Source of the DNA: Planctomycetaceae bacterium
GTDB taxonomy: Bacteria > Planctomycetota > Planctomycetia > Pirellulales > Pirellulaceae
Length of the DNA stretch: 15,434 bases
Direction: 5' to 3'
NCBI GenBank assembly: GCA_007129635.1
Contig: SKVE01000476.1
Location: 1 to 15,434, forward strand
The translations under genes and the position numbers were made by a program. The first letter of the stretch is position 1; every line of letters begins with the position of its first letter. The notes below the pieces were generated by a model. That model saw nothing but the letters and a program-made list of their open reading frames with translations. It did no database searches and was not told where the DNA came from. Of the stretch, positions 561 through 14,186 are shown piece after piece.

Positions 561-604
561 CACAACCCCCGACTCGCGTTGGTCGCCGGTCTGTCCGAGT
601 CGGC

Positions 605-3952
<3,348 letters not shown>

Positions 3953-3978
3953 AGATGAACTTTCCTAGGATGAACCAG

Positions 3979-4002
3979 ACGCTGAAAGGCTCCGCCCAGC
4001 GT
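3979..4002. other. Hairpin between fhcC and the SNF2 gene
   Basis: ACGCTG (3979-3984) pairs with CAGCGT (3997-4002), and an inner GGC/GCC pair closes a TCC loop with an AAA bulge. It lies between the fhcC stop and the ribosome-binding site of the SNF2 gene. There is no following T-run, so it is not a standard terminator; it might act in mRNA processing or attenuation, or be incidental. Confidence 0.3.
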
Positions 4003-4027
4003 TGACGATAGGAATCGAGGGCATCGA

Positions 4028-4855
4028 TCAGGAAGCGGCTGCGAACCGCATGAAAATTTCGCCTCGGCCACCTTCGAGCAGGTCGCCATGATACATGAAG
4101 TAGCTGGCCGCCAACAGCTCGTCAGGCATCGAAAAACCGGTCTGCATCAGATGCCGAACCAGCAACCGCAGCGCGATCGGCTGGCATCGGCAAGCGTAGC
4201 GAAAACTGGGCAACACGGGTGGCGGTTTTTGGCCCAGCAGCACCAGCGTGCCGCGATGCATCCCGGCCCCATGCCGGATGCCGCATTCCCCCAACACCAG
4301 CACGGTTCCGGCCAGCATATTGAAGCCTACCAGATCGCCCACCTGACCACCGATCGCGACCAATCCGCGACGCATGGTGTGCCCGACTTCGTTGCCGGCA
4401 TCTCCATCCACCAAGATCTGGCCACGCGTCATGCCGCGAGCGCTGCCTCGATACGCGGCGCCGACCAAATGGCCCGCTCGGCCATGCACGTGGATGTGAC
4501 CGCCGTGCATTTCGGCCCCCAGCCAATCGCTGACGTCGCCGTCGACGACGATCTGGCCGCCCGTCATTTCGCTGCCCACGTGCCGCCCCGCGTTGCCCAG
4601 CACACGCATCCTTCCCGATGCCATCTGGGCGCCGATCCAGTGCACGCCGGCCAGATCCCCCTGCCAGTGAACCGTCGCGTCGGAGGCATCCCCCGAGACT
4701 TCAAAAAAATCACCTACACATACTTGGACGTTGCCGTGAAAGATCTCCAGGCGCTCGATCTCTGCGACCGATTTGTCCCGTAACCGATCGGGCGTGATGC
4801 CCTCGACCTCCAACGGAACCTGGGAACCCGTGTGCAAGCGTAACCGCAAAACCAT
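4028..4855 (-). CDS. fhcC: Formylmethanofuran dehydrogenase / formyltransferase-hydrolase subunit C
   Basis: A 275-residue protein built of tandem right-handed beta-helix repeats of the form G-x-x-M-x-x-G-x-I-x-V-x-G-x-x-G (for example GSEMTGGQIVVDGDVSDWLG and GAEMHGGHIHVHGRAGHLVG), the hallmark of FmdC/FwdC/FhcC and the related glutamate synthase alpha C-terminal domain. In H4MPT-linked C1 metabolism, subunits A-D together release formate from, or attach it to, a methanofuran-type carrier; C is a structural scaffold for the complex. I chose the ATG at 4853-4855 because it has AAGGA seven bases upstream and the N-terminus VLRLRLHTGSQVPLEVEG fits the family; a TTG at 4889-4891 would add 12 residues without support. 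The A, B and D subunits are not in the window, so this gene stands apart from any fhc cluster. It is divergent from mobA. Alternative: a lone GXGXG-repeat protein of the same fold. Confidence 0.85.
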   Translation of the reverse strand: MVLRLRLHTGSQVPLEVEGITPDRLRDKSVAEIERLEIFHGNVQVCVGDFFEVSGDASDATVHWQGDLAGVHWIGAQMASGRMRVLGNAGRHVGSEMTGGQIVVDGDVSDWLGAEMHGGHIHVHGRAGHLVGAAYRGSARGMTRGQILVDGDAGNEVGHTMRRGLVAIGGQVGDLVGFNMLAGTVLVLGECGIRHGAGMHRGTLVLLGQKPPPVLPSFRYACRCQPIALRLLVRHLMQTGFSMPDELLAASYFMYHGDLLEGGRGEIFMRFAAAS

Positions 4856-4862
4856 GTTCCAA

Positions 4863-4867
4863 TCCTT
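4863..4867 (-). promoter_or_regulatory. Ribosome-binding site fixing the fhcC start
   Basis: AAGGA on the minus strand, seven bases before the ATG at 4853-4855. It supports that codon over the upstream in-frame TTG at 4889-4891, which has no comparable site. Confidence 0.65.
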
Positions 4868-4943
4868 GTGCGGTAAGGCCGGAATACGCAAAAATAACTA
4901 GCATCATGTTAACGAAATGATCCGGTGGCGACTAGGGGCGACC

Positions 4944-4949
4944 AAGGAG
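4944..4949 (+). promoter_or_regulatory. Ribosome-binding site fixing the mobA start
   Basis: AAGGAG, eight bases before the ATG at 4958-4960. It decides for this ATG over the upstream in-frame GTG at 4925. The promoters of both mobA and fhcC should lie in the shared intergenic 4856-4957, but no convincing -35/-10 pair stands out there. Confidence 0.7.
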
Positions 4950-4957
4950 TAATCACC

Positions 4958-5581
4958 ATGCAAGTGGGCGGAATCGTCTTGTGCGGCGGACAGAGCCGTC
5001 GCATGGGCACCTCGAAAGCCATGCTGCCCTTCGGGCCAGAACCGATGCTGCAACGCGTCGTGCGGTTGCTGGGCCACGTGGTGCAGCCGTTGGCCGTGGT
5101 TGCCGCTCCCGGTCAGGAGCTTCCTCCGTTGGACTCGCAGATCCTAATCGTCCGCGATCGGCAGCGTGGCCGCGGCCCGCTTGAGGGCCTGCGCTCCGGC
5201 TTGGTCGCCCTGCAACCGGTCTCCGATGCCGCCTTTGTCACCGGCTGCGATGTGCCCCTGCTCCAGGCCGGTTTCATCCAGGCGATGATCCAAGAATTGG
5301 GCTCCCACGAGATTGCGGTGCCCATCGACGGCCAGTTTTTTCACCCCCTGGCGGCCGTATACCGCACCCGAATTATACGCAAAATCGACCATCTTCTCGG
5401 TCAAGCCATTTACAAACCGCGCCTGCTGTTCCATGAAGTTCCCACCTGCCAAGTGCCCGTAGATCGCCTAAGCCTCGCAGACCCCCGTTTGTTATCACTG
5501 ATCAATGTGAATCGAAGAGAAGACTATTTGGCCGCGTTGGCCGAGGCTGGATTCGAGCCACCCGCCCATTTTTCGTTCTGA
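4958..5581 (+). CDS. mobA: Molybdenum cofactor guanylyltransferase
   Basis: A 207-residue NTP-transferase-fold protein that would join GMP from GTP to molybdopterin to make molybdopterin guanine dinucleotide (MGD), the cofactor of DMSO-reductase-type enzymes and formylmethanofuran dehydrogenase. Visible motifs are the nucleotide-binding signature LCGGQSRRMGTSKAMLPFG (residues 8-26, with Lys20), GRGPLEGL (71-78), the metal-binding TGCDVPLL (95-102) and the late INVNRREDY (182-190) that corresponds to the family NxNTPEDL. Length matches MobA (about 190-210). The ATG at 4958 has AAGGAG upstream. It stands divergent to fhcC, whose enzyme family uses MGD, which gives the pair a shared theme. A CTP-dependent MocA-type transferase is the main alternative, but the overall match favours MobA. 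Confidence 0.88.
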   Translation: MQVGGIVLCGGQSRRMGTSKAMLPFGPEPMLQRVVRLLGHVVQPLAVVAAPGQELPPLDSQILIVRDRQRGRGPLEGLRSGLVALQPVSDAAFVTGCDVPLLQAGFIQAMIQELGSHEIAVPIDGQFFHPLAAVYRTRIIRKIDHLLGQAIYKPRLLFHEVPTCQVPVDRLSLADPRLLSLINVNRREDYLAALAEAGFEPPAHFSF

Positions 5582-5719
5582 GGCCTTGCTTTCTGCAAAA
5601 TGGGGGGTGGGGTATTCTTTTGGAATCGGTTAGGATGAAAGTAGACGATGTGGTCCTGGCCGGGGCTCGAAACGAACCGATGCCGGGATTCGAAAGACGA
5701 AAGATTTTTTTGAAATGGA

Positions 5720-5726
5720 AAGGGAG
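5720..5726 (+). promoter_or_regulatory. Ribosome-binding site before a GTG start
   Basis: AAGGGAG seven bases before GTG at 5734-5736. It selects this GTG, which begins directly with a lipoprotein-type signal peptide, over the upstream in-frame TTG at 5620. Confidence 0.6.
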
Positions 5727-5733
5727 AACGACA

Positions 5734-6003
5734 GTGAAGCGGTTTTGGACTCTTGTCATGGTATCCGCCCTATTTTCCGCCGGTTGCACCCCCCCGCCTG
5801 CTGCTACGGTCAGTATCGATTCGACCGATGGTCCGCCGAGCACGACCACCGACGCCTGGCACACGACCACCGACGCTTGGGATACGACCACCGATGCCTG
5901 GAGCACGACCACCGACGCCTGGGATACGACCACCGACGCCTGGGATACGCCGACCGACGTTTGGGGCACGACCATCGACGACGACGGCTTTGGCGACCCC
6001 TAA
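5734..6003 (+). CDS. Small predicted lipoprotein with heptapeptide TTTDAWx repeats
   Basis: An 89-residue protein of no family I recognise. It starts at GTG with a good ribosome-binding site. Residues 1-17 form a short signal peptide (KR then a hydrophobic run to LFSAG) ending at Cys18, a plausible lipobox (F-S-A-G-C), so the mature protein may be lipid-anchored. After a Pro-rich linker come about six heptads reading TTTDAWx, then a degenerate one (TPTDVWG) and the acidic tail IDDDGFGDP. The mature part is low-complexity, Thr/Asp-rich, with one Trp per heptad and one Cys only. It lies 152 bases after mobA in the same direction and ends facing the FAD oxidoreductase gene. The repeat keeps other frames open too, but only this frame gives a signal peptide plus ribosome-binding site. 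Function unknown; a surface or periplasmic spacer or metal-binding peptide is conceivable. Confidence 0.65.
   Translation: MKRFWTLVMVSALFSAGCTPPPAATVSIDSTDGPPSTTTDAWHTTTDAWDTTTDAWSTTTDAWDTTTDAWDTPTDVWGTTIDDDGFGDP
5842..5982 (+). repeat. 21-bp in-frame tandem repeat, about 6.7 copies
   Basis: Units begin at 5842, 5863, 5884, 5905, 5926 and 5947, with a 15-base partial unit at 5968. The consensus opens ACGACCACCGACGCCTGG plus three variable bases. The fourth and fifth units are identical, the others differ by one to several bases, and the sixth is the most diverged. Each unit encodes one TTTDAWx heptad of the lipoprotein. Expansion by slippage or unequal crossing-over is the simplest origin. 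Confidence 0.9.
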
Positions 6004-6047
6004 TCGCCCGGCCAGGTATTTCTTGGTGGAATCGGCGGGACGGGGTC

Positions 6048-6121
6048 GATCCCGTAGGGGATCGCAGCCATTAGCCGGTGGTCGAGCGAAGCGACACCAC
6101 CGGACCACCGGACCACCGGAC
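6048..6121. repeat. Hairpin-rich dispersed repeat between convergent genes
   Basis: GATCCC (6048-6053) pairs with GGGATC (6058-6063) across a four-base loop. CCGGTGGT (6075-6082) pairs with ACCACCGG (6096-6103). The 8-mer ACCACCGG then occurs three times in tandem (6096-6119). The block separates the convergent lipoprotein and FAD oxidoreductase genes and ends a few bases from the oxidoreductase stop. I recall the central GGTCGAGCGAAGCGACACCA segment as a frequent intergenic element in planctomycetes. It could serve as a bidirectional transcription stop, though no T-run follows either hairpin. Confidence 0.5.
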
Positions 6122-6124
6122 CTT

Positions 6125-8911
6125 TTACGGCAGCAGATGCAGACCGTCGACGACGACGTAGCCGTCGGTGTCGGTGTTGGCGATACGGATGGTGGAGCGC
6201 TCGTCCAGTGGAAACGATCCTAAGCTGATGAATCGGCCGTCGAGGGGCGGGGCGAGCCGCTGATTGATGTGGACGGTGGTTTCGCCGTCGACGTGTGAGA
6301 TCGTGACCGGGACGTTGGTCGCTCGGTTGTCATACGCCACGTAGGCCAAGCGGACTTCGAAGCGGCCGGTGACTCCCGGGTGGAATTCCAACCAGGCATC
6401 CCCTTTGTCTTGGTTGTTGTCGTGCATGTAACCGTACACCAGATACTTGCCCCCGAACGTCGACTCGACCCAAACTCCCTTCGCAGCCGCCTGCTGATCG
6501 TCCAGGAATACGCCCGGTAGATCGGGACGCGGGTCATCGTGCCGTGGGCCAACCAATTCGCTTCTACGTTGGATCGCTTGCAGCACATCCTGCGATTCCT
6601 GGTACAGACGGATCTCGCAAACGGCCGTCGGGCGAGCGAACACGAAGCGGACACGATCCGTGGTGACGGTTTCCAGCGGTACGACGTACCGACGCTGGTC
6701 CAGTCGCGTGATCCGGCCGACTGGTTCCCACCCGCCGCTGCGATGCGTTTCGATCCGCACCGGGACCGCCCGTTGTTCGAAGGTGATGTGGGCGACGTTT
6801 ACCGATCGCGGCTGCTCGAATGCCAGAGCGATCCAGTGCGGCGCCTGGCCATCGGCAAGCCAGGCGTTTCGGTCGTCGCCCAGCACCCGGCTCAGGCCGT
6901 TGACCACCTTCGGCGCCGACATCCCTTCGGCGGCGGACGAGGCAGACACGGCGGCGGACCGAGCGAGATCGGCGGGGTCCTCATTGCGCACCCCGAGCAG
7001 ATAGCACCCGTCCTTTAACAATGTTTGCTGCAGGCTGGTCAAGTGCCGTTGGTAGACGCCTGCGGGAGTCGTCTCGTGCGTTACCGCGATCGCAGCGGCT
7101 GTGCCGACGGCCTGGCCCATGGCCAGGCAGGGCCGCATGACGCGGGTTCCGCCCATGGCGATGTGCGTGGCCGAGTGGCAGCGGCCAGCCATCATCAGGT
7201 TGTTGATGTTTCGCGAGTACAGCGTGCGGTACGGGATGCTGACTCGTCGACCACCATAGACGTGGATACAGTCGTTGCCCGCCACCCAGAAACCTTCCGG
7301 GTGATGGAGGTCCGGCCCCCAGTCGGTAAAGGCGATCGTGTCGTCGTGGACCACGCGTTGATCGTAGTCCCGTTGGCTCATCACATACGGCCCCATCAAT
7401 CGTCGACTCTCGCGGACGCCGGGCACGAAGTTCAACCAGACGAGTTCCCGGTGGGCGTTTTTCTTTCGAGTGGCCGGGTTGTGGTTCTTGGCATAGTTCC
7501 AGAGTCCCAGATTGATCCTCAGCAGCTCGTCGCGGATGGGTTCGGCATCGGCCACGGTATCCCGCATCCCACCGTATTCGACCCACCAGCGGCGGACGAC
7601 CGCGCCGTCGGGATCGTCGCCCGGATTGCGGCCTCGGCCACGCGCCGGCCGGTCGAAGTTTTCGGGCCTGCGGACGTCGGGCAAGCGCCGATGGTCGCCG
7701 CGCGGTTGAAAATCGGCGTCCTCGCGCCACAGGTACGCCCATTCGGGGCAATCGAAGGGAACGGGGTGGTCGCGGGTGACGATTTCCGCCTGGTACAGCG
7801 AATTGCCTTGCGTGCGTGGCGTGGGCTGCACCGGGGCAAGGGTTTCGCCGAATTCGTCACGAGCCTCCTCGCCCACGCGGTATTCCGCTCCGGCATAGTA
7901 ACCGATCCAGGCATGCCCCGTCGTGTCGAGGAACACGGGTGCCCGGAACGCCAGGCGTTGGCCCGTCCGCACGTCGACCGCCAGCACGGCCTCGATCTCG
8001 CCCGGCTGGCCCGACTGGCCGGGCTCCAACGGTTCTGCCGCCGCGCCCTTCATGCGAACGCCGATGGCCCGTGTATGGAGAAACAGCCCGATGTGCGGCT
8101 CGGCGCGGACGATCGCTTCCATCCATTGCGAGTCAGCATAGCGATTCCAGCCTTGCGGCGTGGGAAAGAACTCTTCGCACAACCCGGTCACGTTGACTCG
8201 GTCCGGTGGACTGCCCAGATAGCCCATCGGCGGAACACGGATCTCCGAGGAACTGTTGCCGCCCACCACCGGCCGGTCTTGAATCAAGGCCACACGCACC
8301 CCGTGGCGCGCGGCGGCCACGGCGGCGCCCAACCCGCTGGGGCCAGCGCCCACGACGACCACATCGAACGGGTCCAGCTCCTGGACCTTACGAGACACGC
8401 CGCCGAATTTCACCCGTTGCGCGGCCAAGTCGTCGGGCTGATCGGCCGGTTGGAACCCGTCGCCCGCCAGCACCACGGCATCCACACGACCCCACCAGCC
8501 GGTCAAGTCCTGGATGCGGAGTTCGACCTGACCTTGCGGCAGATCGAACGTTCCAGAGTGTTGCCAGCGCCAAGCGTCATCCGAGGCGCGTCCCAATTCG
8601 CTTGACGATCGACTGCCGACCAGAACGCGGAATCGGCCGGGGCTATGGCTGGGCAGCCAATCGCGACAACGCACCCACAAGTGGTACTGGCCCGCAGCGG
8701 GAATCTTAACATGTGTGACGGCATCGTCGACCGGTCGTCCCAGACCGGTGGCCAACAGATAGACCGATCCCATGGTGTCGACATGCTGCGTATCACGTCG
8801 CCAACCGCCAACGCAGTCAAAGCTCTCCGCCTCGACCCAGATCGGCTGCGGAACTTCGGCAGCACCGGCGACCGAAACCAACAGCACCAAAACAAGAACC
8901 GCACCTTGCAT
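6125..8911 (-). CDS. Secreted FAD-dependent oxidoreductase with carbohydrate-binding-like and golvesin-type domains
   Basis: A 928-residue protein with an N-terminal signal peptide (cleavage likely near AGA-AEVP). Next comes an accessory beta domain (about 20-155, beginning IWVEAESF as in CBM-like modules), then an FAD_oxidored-type domain with the Rossmann motif FDVVVVGAGPSGLGAA (GAGPSG at 188-193) and VGGNSSSE (216-223). A discoidin-like beta domain follows (about 665-785), and a C-terminal golvesin/xanthan-lyase-type domain (about 795-928, with GGKYLVYGYMHDNNQDKG, NRATNVPVTISH and DGYVVVDGLHLL). Proteins of this build are numerous in planctomycetes and usually thought to act on complex sugars outside the cytoplasm; the substrate is unknown. 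The ATG at 8909-8911 has AAAGGGA seven bases upstream; an in-frame GTG at 8929 would add six residues in front of the signal peptide. The gene lies 125 bases after the hemerythrin-like gene. Confidence 0.85.
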   Translation of the reverse strand: MQGAVLVLVLLVSVAGAAEVPQPIWVEAESFDCVGGWRRDTQHVDTMGSVYLLATGLGRPVDDAVTHVKIPAAGQYHLWVRCRDWLPSHSPGRFRVLVGSRSSSELGRASDDAWRWQHSGTFDLPQGQVELRIQDLTGWWGRVDAVVLAGDGFQPADQPDDLAAQRVKFGGVSRKVQELDPFDVVVVGAGPSGLGAAVAAARHGVRVALIQDRPVVGGNSSSEIRVPPMGYLGSPPDRVNVTGLCEEFFPTPQGWNRYADSQWMEAIVRAEPHIGLFLHTRAIGVRMKGAAAEPLEPGQSGQPGEIEAVLAVDVRTGQRLAFRAPVFLDTTGHAWIGYYAGAEYRVGEEARDEFGETLAPVQPTPRTQGNSLYQAEIVTRDHPVPFDCPEWAYLWREDADFQPRGDHRRLPDVRRPENFDRPARGRGRNPGDDPDGAVVRRWWVEYGGMRDTVADAEPIRDELLRINLGLWNYAKNHNPATRKKNAHRELVWLNFVPGVRESRRLMGPYVMSQRDYDQRVVHDDTIAFTDWGPDLHHPEGFWVAGNDCIHVYGGRRVSIPYRTLYSRNINNLMMAGRCHSATHIAMGGTRVMRPCLAMGQAVGTAAAIAVTHETTPAGVYQRHLTSLQQTLLKDGCYLLGVRNEDPADLARSAAVSASSAAEGMSAPKVVNGLSRVLGDDRNAWLADGQAPHWIALAFEQPRSVNVAHITFEQRAVPVRIETHRSGGWEPVGRITRLDQRRYVVPLETVTTDRVRFVFARPTAVCEIRLYQESQDVLQAIQRRSELVGPRHDDPRPDLPGVFLDDQQAAAKGVWVESTFGGKYLVYGYMHDNNQDKGDAWLEFHPGVTGRFEVRLAYVAYDNRATNVPVTISHVDGETTVHINQRLAPPLDGRFISLGSFPLDERSTIRIANTDTDGYVVVDGLHLLP

Positions 8912-8918
8912 CGCTACG

Positions 8919-8925
8919 TCCCTTT
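8919..8925 (-). promoter_or_regulatory. Ribosome-binding site fixing the FAD oxidoreductase start
   Basis: AAAGGGA on the minus strand, seven bases before ATG 8909-8911. No such site precedes the alternative GTG at 8927-8929. Confidence 0.55.
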
Positions 8926-8970
8926 CCACAAAGCATCGATCCTCGCAAAAACCGACCTACCTGGTACTCT

Positions 8971-9007: not shown

Positions 9008-9036
9008 TCTACCGGAATGTTGCCGATCGACGGGCG

Positions 9037-9498
9037 TCAGATGGGCCGGCCGGCCTGAGCCAGAAGCTGCTCTTCGTTGCGCCGATGATTGACCAAGCGG
9101 CGCTCGAGCCCACGGTACTGGTGGTCGATGTCGTCCCAAGTCGAAGCCGGACAGATCGTCGTTCCCGCCAGCTCGTGCAGGTGGTCCAACTGGTCGAGCA
9201 ACTCGGGATGCTCGGCATTCAACTCCTCGAACCGTACTCGCAGCTCCGGACGACACTGCGACAAAGCCGACAGATGCCGTTCATCTTCCTCTAAATCGAA
9301 CAGGTTCCGCAGCTTGCAGGCCAATTCGTTCAGCATCTGGGGAACATCTTCGATCGGGACGGCTGGCTGATGATAGTGTTCATCCACATCAGCCTCGGCA
9401 ATGTCCTCCAGAAGAGTGCCCAATTTGCACAACAAATCGTGCAAGGCGGTTCGCAAGCCCGCCAATTCGCGATCGATCCTTTGACTTTTGTTGCTCAT
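9037..9498 (-). CDS. Hemerythrin-like hypothetical protein
   Basis: A 153-residue, all-helical, soluble protein with many acidic residues. The arrangement LRNLFDLEEDERHLSAL (63-79), then LNAEHPELLDQLDHLHEL (93-110), then NHRRNEEQLL (137-146) matches the spacing of HHE/hemerythrin-like helices seen in planctomycete hypothetical proteins. Possible iron ligands are His75, His97, His138 and Glu142/143, but the His expected just before the first acidic cluster (in the position of Asn65/Phe67) is missing, so a complete di-iron site is doubtful. The ATG at 9496-9498 has AGGGGG six bases upstream; an in-frame TTG at 9621 would add 41 residues of poor quality. It lies between the epimerase and FAD oxidoreductase genes on the same strand. 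If metal is bound, oxygen or redox sensing is possible; otherwise function is unknown. Confidence 0.6.
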   Translation of the reverse strand: MSNKSQRIDRELAGLRTALHDLLCKLGTLLEDIAEADVDEHYHQPAVPIEDVPQMLNELACKLRNLFDLEEDERHLSALSQCRPELRVRFEELNAEHPELLDQLDHLHELAGTTICPASTWDDIDHQYRGLERRLVNHRRNEEQLLAQAGRPI

Positions 9499-9592
9499 CC
9501 TACACCCCCTTGAAAAACTGGCTTGTCGCCCGTGTCTCGTTCGTAGGAAACCGACACAACACCATCCTGACGCAACTCCGTGCCCATTTGTT

Positions 9593-9621
9593 AATTTTCG
9601 CCAATTTCTTCCCGATGTCAA
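9593..9621 (-). promoter_or_regulatory. Possible sigma-70-like promoter for the hemerythrin-like gene
   Basis: On the minus strand TTGACA (9616-9621) is followed after 17 bases by AAAATT (9593-9598), a poor -10 match. It is about 95 bases before the start codon, in the 182-base gap after the epimerase gene. The -35 is perfect but the -10 is weak, so this is tentative. Confidence 0.25.
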
Positions 9622-9680
9622 ATTTGCCGTCGTTCAGGGCCCCCTTGCGTCAAATCCACCGTGAAAACGGAGCCCGTTGC

Positions 9681-12248: not shown

Positions 12249-12797
12249 TTAAACCGGGGCCGCTGGAAGATGCCCATCGCACCAGCGCTGAAGCCATAGT
12301 TCCAAAACCAACAGGCTCCACAAAGGATAAGCGAAATTGGCCGATCCGGACTCGTGACGTTGGACCATCTGTCGAACCACGTCGGGACGGAAATAGCCCC
12401 GCTGGACGCTGGTGGAACCCAGCAGCACATCATGGGTCAACTCCTTCAGATCGTGGCGGAACCAGTCCTCGATCGGCACGCCGAATCCCATCTTTTTCCG
12501 CGTCCAGATCTCTCGGGGCAACAGATGGCCAAACGCGGCTTGCAACAAGCGTTTGCCACGTCCCCTTCGATACTTCAAATGGCTGGGTAACGAAGCGGCG
12601 AACTCGACCAGCCGGTAGTCCAAAAACGGTTGACGGCATTCCAGCGAATGGGCCATCGAGGCGATATCGACCTTGGTCATCAGGTCACAGGGCAGGTACG
12701 TGGTCAGATCGGTCAACGAAAAGGCAGTGACCGGATCGCGTCGATCACAGCGGGCATAGGCTTGCTGGAGAAAAACGGCCGGGTGTTCGTCTGGCAC
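12249..12797 (-). CDS. C-terminal fragment of interrupted asparagine synthetase
   Basis: A 182-codon open frame starting at a GTG inside the parent gene. It carries the end of the synthetase domain (PCDLMTKVDIASMAHSLEC, KKMGFGVPIEDWF). No ribosome-binding site precedes the GTG, and the 20 codons upstream to the TGA (12798-12857) also encode family sequence, so independent expression is unlikely. It is a remnant of the gene spanning 12249-14186 and not a separate gene. Confidence 0.5.
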   Translation of the reverse strand: MPDEHPAVFLQQAYARCDRRDPVTAFSLTDLTTYLPCDLMTKVDIASMAHSLECRQPFLDYRLVEFAASLPSHLKYRRGRGKRLLQAAFGHLLPREIWTRKKMGFGVPIEDWFRHDLKELTHDVLLGSTSVQRGYFRPDVVRQMVQRHESGSANFAYPLWSLLVLELWLQRWCDGHLPAAPV

Positions 12798-12857
12798 GGT
12801 GCGGCGGAATTCGTCGGTGTACAGTTCCGCACGCTGCGAATCCTTGAAGATCCCGAT

Positions 12858-12860
12858 TCA
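12858..12860 (-). other. In-frame TGA at a conserved Trp position of asnB
   Basis: Minus-strand codons read CGT TAT CTG GAT TGA ATC GGG ATC TTC: R-Y-L-D-stop-I-G-I-F. One base change from TGG (Trp) explains it. TGA is used as the normal stop of mobA, glgC and the SNF2 gene here, so the code is not reassigned. Confidence 0.9.
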
Positions 12861-14186
12861 ATCCAGATAACGCTGCAAAGGCGGCGTACGCAGCACTTCA
12901 CAGAATCGCTTTAAACGCCGCAGGGCGGACTTTTGGCGAGTCGAGGAAGGCAGCGACTGCCAGAATCCAGCCCCAAACACGACTCGCAGCGGCCAAAATC
13001 GATCCAATCCAGCCGCCAAAGCAACCGCCTGGTATCGAGGATAGCCGGCGAATAACTCGTCGCCCCCATCACCACTGAGCGCCACCGTCACATGTTCGCG
13101 AGTCCGCTGGGAAACATACCACGTCGGGATGGCCGAACTGTCCGCAAAGGGCTCGTCATAGTGCCAGACAAGCTGCGGCAGGATCTCCATCCCGGCCGGC
13201 GTGACCTGGAATTCATGGTGCTCGGTCTTCAGATGCTGAGCCACGCGTCGAGCATAATGCGTCTCGTCGTATTGCGCGATGGGAAACCCGATCGAGAACG
13301 TCTTCATCGGCCGCTGCATCTTCTGCTGGGCGATGGCGACGATCAACGACGAATCCACCCCCCCCGACAAAAAGGCGCCTAACGGTACCTCGCTCTGCAA
13401 TCGCATGGCGACCGACGATTCCAGCAGCTCACGCAAACGCTCGCAAGCCTCCGGTTCGTCGATCGAAATCTCCTGCTGAAAATCGGGCTCCCAGTACGAT
13501 TGGACTCGCAGTCGATCGCCGTCATACTCCGCCAGATGCCCCGGCGGTAACTTGCTGATCCCACGAAAAATCGTACGCGGATGAGGGACGTACTGGTAGG
13601 TCAGGTACTGATCCACAGCCGTGGGGTCCACATCGCGAGCCACCCCGGGGATCTCCAGCAGGCTCTTCAATTCGCTGGCAAAGGCCAGACGCCCCGGTTG
13701 CTGCAGAAAATACAGGGGTTTTTTCCCCAGACGGTCGCGTCCCAGCACCAGCCGCCGACGAGGCCGATCCCAGATCGCGATGGCGAACATGCCATTGAAG
13801 TGGCGGAAACAGTCCAGGCCCTCGTCCTCGTACAGATGGACGATCGTCTCGGTATCGCTGCGAGTCCGGAAGCGGTGGCCGGCGCCTTCCAGCCGATGAC
13901 GCAGTTCCAGGAAGTTGTAGATCTCGCCGTTGAAGACCACCCACACCGTGTCGTCTTCGTTGGACAGCGGTTGACGGCCGCCGCCGACATCGATAATCGA
14001 CAGGCGGCGAAATCCTAACGCCACACCCGGCACCGACCCGTCCGGCGACTGGCACTGGTACTCGCTCTGATAAGTGCCTTCGTCGTCCGGTCCTCGGTGC
14101 CGCAAAACGTCCGTCATCCGCTGCAGCACCGGCGGATGGATCGCCCTGTCAGGATCGCTCCAGATCGCGCCGGTGATGCCGCACAT
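12858..14186 (-). CDS. N-terminal fragment of interrupted asparagine synthetase
   Basis: The 442-codon part before the in-frame TGA, with the complete glutaminase domain (Cys2 nucleophile) and the ATP-binding PP-loop of the synthetase domain but without its last third. Made alone it could hydrolyse glutamine but would probably not fold into an active synthetase. Listed separately because automated callers will report it as its own gene. Confidence 0.55.
   Translation of the reverse strand: MCGITGAIWSDPDRAIHPPVLQRMTDVLRHRGPDDEGTYQSEYQCQSPDGSVPGVALGFRRLSIIDVGGGRQPLSNEDDTVWVVFNGEIYNFLELRHRLEGAGHRFRTRSDTETIVHLYEDEGLDCFRHFNGMFAIAIWDRPRRRLVLGRDRLGKKPLYFLQQPGRLAFASELKSLLEIPGVARDVDPTAVDQYLTYQYVPHPRTIFRGISKLPPGHLAEYDGDRLRVQSYWEPDFQQEISIDEPEACERLRELLESSVAMRLQSEVPLGAFLSGGVDSSLIVAIAQQKMQRPMKTFSIGFPIAQYDETHYARRVAQHLKTEHHEFQVTPAGMEILPQLVWHYDEPFADSSAIPTWYVSQRTREHVTVALSGDGGDELFAGYPRYQAVALAAGLDRFWPLRVVFGAGFWQSLPSSTRQKSALRRLKRFCEVLRTPPLQRYLD

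Follow-up and report, generated by a model that had tools for sequence, protein, structure and literature searches.

An in-frame TGA interrupts an asparagine synthetase gene in a draft planctomycete genome, and the question raised by this locus is whether the codon is recoded or is an ordinary lesion. The window, that is, the whole stretch of DNA analyzed here (15,434 nucleotides), is the entire contig C30 of a draft assembly (G000) of 5.01 Mb in 1022 contigs, which is 63.56% complete and 2.27% contaminated. Read directly from the sequence, the minus-strand codon at positions 12860-12858 is TGA and forms codon 443 of a frame that runs on the minus strand from an ATG at 14186 to a TAA at 12249 (645 codons plus the TAA). 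This TGA is the sole inner stop, with 442 sense codons upstream and 202 downstream. When the frame was aligned with that of the congener G002, all 645 codons were collinear, with 0 gaps. The reading frame and this alignment confirmed the first-pass annotation, which had described a TGA at a Trp codon of a gene with no frameshift and no other stop. The features are the following.

12858..12860, minus strand: in-frame TGA, codon 443, seen in this assembly alone, with TGG in 109/109 loci of other genomes
12249..14186, minus strand: asparagine synthase (glutamine-hydrolysing) frame with one interruption; TIGR01536; PF00733, PF13537 and PF13522
12861..14186, minus strand: the 442 codons ahead of the TGA, with the entire glutaminase domain (PF13537, residues 60-177) and the first half of the synthetase domain (PF00733, profile positions 2-174 of 354)
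12249..12857, minus strand: the 202 codons past the TGA, with the second half of the synthetase domain (PF00733, profile positions 201-354, in the piece 12249-12797)

The identity of the protein was examined on the frame read through the TGA. It scored 513.9 bits against TIGR01536, far over the cut-off of 267.1, and thus belongs to the asparagine synthase family (TIGR01536 / PF00733 plus PF13537). It also aligned over nearly its full length with orthologues from Pirellulaceae and other planctomycetes. TIGR03108 (XrtA/PEP-CTERM system amidotransferase) gave a higher score, 650.6 bits, but one below its own cut-off of 816.9, and for this reason asparagine as the exact substrate is tentative. The gene had earlier been called one for a housekeeping enzyme; the asparagine synthase family assignment held, and the housekeeping label is likely but unproven, given the higher score of TIGR03108 below its cut-off. 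A product ending at the TGA covers less than a complete synthetase domain, reaching only position 174 of the PF00733 profile. Two alignments with solved structures did not extend to residue 443 and gave no information on the structural part played by this Trp.

The first-pass annotation had held that the TGA would be of interest as stop codon readthrough if it were common in relatives. The codon was compared in orthologous loci from two collections. The locus search covered 60 genomes including that of the window and retrieved 30 loci, one of them the window's own; the second collection supplied 80 loci from relatives with planctomycete titles (Pirellulaceae, Planctomycetaceae, Rhodopirellula, Thermoguttaceae, and others; one was titled only "bacterium"). 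Nine pairs of loci were identical between both collections. The codon 443 column held TGG in all 109 orthologous loci from other genomes, representing 100 distinct reading-frame sequences, and TGA in none of them. Among these, the three congeners carrying TGG were G002, with 98% amino acid identity (631/645 residues), G001, with 93%, and G003, with 83%. At the protein level, Trp occupied the column in 120/120 database proteins (the best 120 of 7999), including one with 97% identity (P0002), in a list that admits lengths 0.55 to 1.75 times that of the query and therefore favors full-length proteins. The window gene thus departs from its family by a single TGA of its own, where the examined relatives have Trp. 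Conserved stop codon readthrough, with TGA in 0/109 loci and in 0/120 of the best of 7999 proteins, is refuted, and what made the codon potentially interesting did not survive the comparison.

The count of 109 omits four loci of the window's own genome (L001 to L004). Two of them, L002 and L004, are the window gene with its TGA, and the other two, L001 and L003, are paralogues with CTG and CGG, respectively, at the same column. Also left out were the stop-flagged matches of G013 and G032 and some weaker flagged matches; four further stop-flagged loci (L009, L012, L014, and L028) had no inner stop once aligned. In a separate case, a metagenome draft of Planctomycetota bacterium isolate Dive96_bin4.48 (L042), a lone in-frame TAG was found at query position 450, seven codons past the position of the window TGA, with no further inner stop before position 630. 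Differing in both codon and position, it does not argue for a conserved site, but it does show that lone stops occur in metagenome-type assemblies.

The comparison of asnB with G002 gave 68 synonymous and 15 nonsynonymous differences. The resulting dN/dS of 0.064 was the third lowest among the ten genes of the window, the other nine ranging from 0.041 to 0.305. No inner stop was found in the aligned parts of these nine genes, either in the window or in G002; the names used for the neighbors are our own readings of the sequences, made without family searches. By these comparisons, asnB was strongly constrained until very recently, or is so still. Relaxed selection or an older pseudogene was considered and was ruled out by the dN/dS of 0.064 and the absence of gaps relative to G002. 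The lack of decay elsewhere in the gene is predicted by an error or a fresh mutation, but by readthrough as well.

Private nonsense mutations or consensus errors occur in metagenome-assembled genomes. The window gene matches such cases in its single, one-base, unconserved lesion and its otherwise intact frame, and no departing feature was found in it. A stop would result from 3.8% of the single-base substitutions possible across the ten genes of the window. If consensus error rates of 1e-5 or 1e-6 per base are assumed, about 1.7 or 0.17 false nonsense codons, respectively, are expected per 5-Mb assembly, and each genome can be expected to carry a handful of isolated lesions, whether genuine or artifactual. 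G000 showed no overall surplus of in-frame stops, which speaks against an assembly generally full of errors: an inner stop was present in 1/68 rows among the matches listed (56 of 63 sulfatase and 12/12 PSD1 matches), where the rows are Pfam matches and not genes, one gene on C335 gives two rows, and stop-free frameshifts would escape. The source of that row was a frameshifted sulfatase gene (L154, G000:C335:1800-3383), a second isolated lesion in this assembly that is in keeping with an ordinary origin of the TGA. In G002, none of the matches listed had an inner stop (18/18 PSD1 matches and the listed part of 99 sulfatase matches). Asparaginyl-tRNA synthetase (TIGR00457) scored over its cut-off in G001, G002, and G003 and not in G000; given the incompleteness of G000, we draw no biological conclusion from the missing match.

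We consider it highly probable (about 94%) that the TGA is a private one-base difference from the TGG of the relatives, found in one fragmentary draft assembly, and not a recoding signal. Two routes to it, an error and a very recent nonsense mutation, had been named in the first-pass annotation, together with functional readthrough. Both routes stand; the readthrough, of interest only if relatives shared the TGA, lost that basis, the codon being present in 0/109 loci. The TGA may be a wrong consensus base, either a sequencing error or a minority-strain base taken up during assembly, to which we give about 55% of the probability of this reading. The other 45% or so goes to a very recent nonsense mutation in the sampled strain. 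A consensus or strain-mixture error is thus slightly more likely than a recent mutation, the 55:45 split being a matter of judgment. If the base is real, RF2 would release the chain at codon 443, leaving a product of 442 residues that has the glutaminase domain but only half of the synthetase domain, so that amide transfer should fail. An intact paralogue, 640 residues long and encoded on contig C966, may then substitute for it. The first-pass annotation had named as its own refutation relatives that all carry TGG together with a second intact asnB in the same genome. As far as the comparison reached, both were found: TGG in 109/109 loci and, as the second copy, this paralogue, which at about 40% identity is not a duplicate. 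A match on C725 of G002, a possible orthologue of the C966 paralogue, has a similar identity to the query (41%). The genome of the window also contains a third, weak family member, on C88 (53.4 bits).

Any recoding of the codon has to be reconciled with the way this genome uses TGA elsewhere. The RF2 gene (prfB) was found in L150 (G000:C773), where it scored 455.6 bits (cut-off, 370). On the minus strand near position 2446, by our reading, CTT TGA C stands at the junction of the upstream frame with the main frame, which follows at +1; we take this position to be the known autoregulatory programmed frameshift site of prfB. The bare motif CTTTGA was seen 2 times in the prfB locus versus 1.3 expected by chance, so it is the position of CTT TGA C that counts. 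Within the window, TGA terminates 5/9 neighboring genes and lies inside just one of the ten genes. The genome gave 16 tRNA-family matches plus a tRNA-Sec, a low number that fits its low completeness. ARAGORN found 17 tRNAs in 15 loci (an input that left out L144 and L145, which lie within the tRNA cluster of L135), and only the tRNA-Sec bears the anticodon UCA. No tRNA-Trp was recovered from G000, about 36% of which is missing, by ARAGORN or by pattern search. The one tRNA-Trp found in each of the three congeners is identical in sequence among them; its anticodon is CCA, the anticodon stem has 5 bp, and positions 9 and 24 are A and G, respectively (positions read by us). That UGA has been reassigned to Trp in this lineage has only the Trp position of the TGA on its side, which is also the likeness to the UGA Stop-to-Trp codes of Mycoplasmatales, Hodgkinia, and others, as given in PMC8629427. 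Here, in contrast to those codes, RF2 is present with its CTT TGA C, TGA is a stop, and the internal TGA is a single case in ten window genes; the CCA anticodon of the congeners' tRNA-Trp also speaks against reassignment, to which we attach a practically negligible probability. The exclusion of reassignment in the earlier annotation is upheld by RF2, by the neighbors ending in TGA, and by the UCA anticodon being confined to tRNA-Sec among the 17 tRNAs. That tRNA-Sec (L153, G000:C585, positions 1501-1598) scored 66.6 bits against a cut-off of 47; of the selenocysteine insertion machinery, at least the tRNA is encoded in this genome. Its presence was the reason for considering selenocysteine at the UGA, which was rejected because Trp, and never Cys, occupies this position in 120/120 proteins (the best 120 of 7999), and which we regard as extremely remote. 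Folding around the TGA, compared with shuffled sequences over 64 and 47 nucleotides, gave z values of -1.12 and +0.83, respectively, no clear gain over the shuffles; these values refer to free energy only and not to a SECIS model.

Two further explanations take the TGA as real and the gene as still useful. In one of them, readthrough confined to this strain would produce a useful full-length enzyme, the TGA being decoded as Trp by a near-cognate tRNA-Trp, or by some suppressor or misreading tRNA encoded in the unassembled third of the genome, in a very young, strain-specific event. The TGA does replace Trp, the residue that near-cognate misreading would insert, the downstream frame is intact, and the gene is under purifying selection. 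Among the stop codons of enteric bacteria, moreover, UGA leaks most, with a frequency of at least 1e-2 to 1e-3 according to PMC4989110; ordinary leakage of this kind would give traces of full-length enzyme, as a background and not as a mechanism. The replacement of a Trp codon by UGA is also the common point with the near-cognate readthrough described in PMC13092985, where a 4-bp anticodon stem and the changes A9C/G24A of tRNA-Trp are tied to the reading of UGA. The congeners' tRNA-Trp, in contrast, has neither the 4-bp stem nor the A9C/G24A changes reported there, the TGA is absent from all 109 loci of other genomes, RF2 is present, and no suppressor was found among the 17 tRNAs of a genome that is about 36% incomplete and whose own tRNA-Trp was not recovered. 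There is no positive evidence for readthrough in this strain alone, and we judge it very improbable. In the other explanation, the gene would be split into two polypeptides, the second started from a GTG at 12797. A 182-amino-acid frame with this start does exist and covers the second half of the synthetase domain, but it is devoid of residues 444-463, and a stop at codon 443 was found in 0/109 loci; such a split is very improbable.

The TGA is present in the sequence, a recoding reading is unsupported, and the case is ordinary. No account of readthrough of an asparagine synthetase stop codon was found in the portions of the literature that were accessible, and the literature search found nothing on premature stops in metagenome assemblies. 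Had the relatives shared the TGA, this would be a case of readthrough in a biosynthetic enzyme. As it is, the finding is of little consequence except for annotation, where this assembly's gene is best flagged as interrupted or uncertain and its TGA kept out of any tally of recoding. When a lone in-frame stop is met in a fragmentary metagenome assembly, the congeners should be checked before readthrough is claimed.

Some observations concern the structure of the contig itself. Positions 1-80 and 6000-6104 of the window match repeats of about 50 to 80 bases at many places in three congener genomes, among the part of the candidates that was scored. The contig starts inside one of these repeats (1-80), which may explain the contig break. 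The gene region at 6117-8937 lies on a separate contig, C1106, in G002, and on C174 of G002 the counterparts of window positions 571-6006 and 9018-9637 are about 10 bases apart. The segment 6117-8937 could be either an insertion in this lineage or the result of a repeat-mediated misassembly of the window. Between positions 5818 and 5985, the sequence has a 21-base period with about eight units, within a small frame (5620-6003) that, by our reading of the sequence, looks like a lipoprotein.
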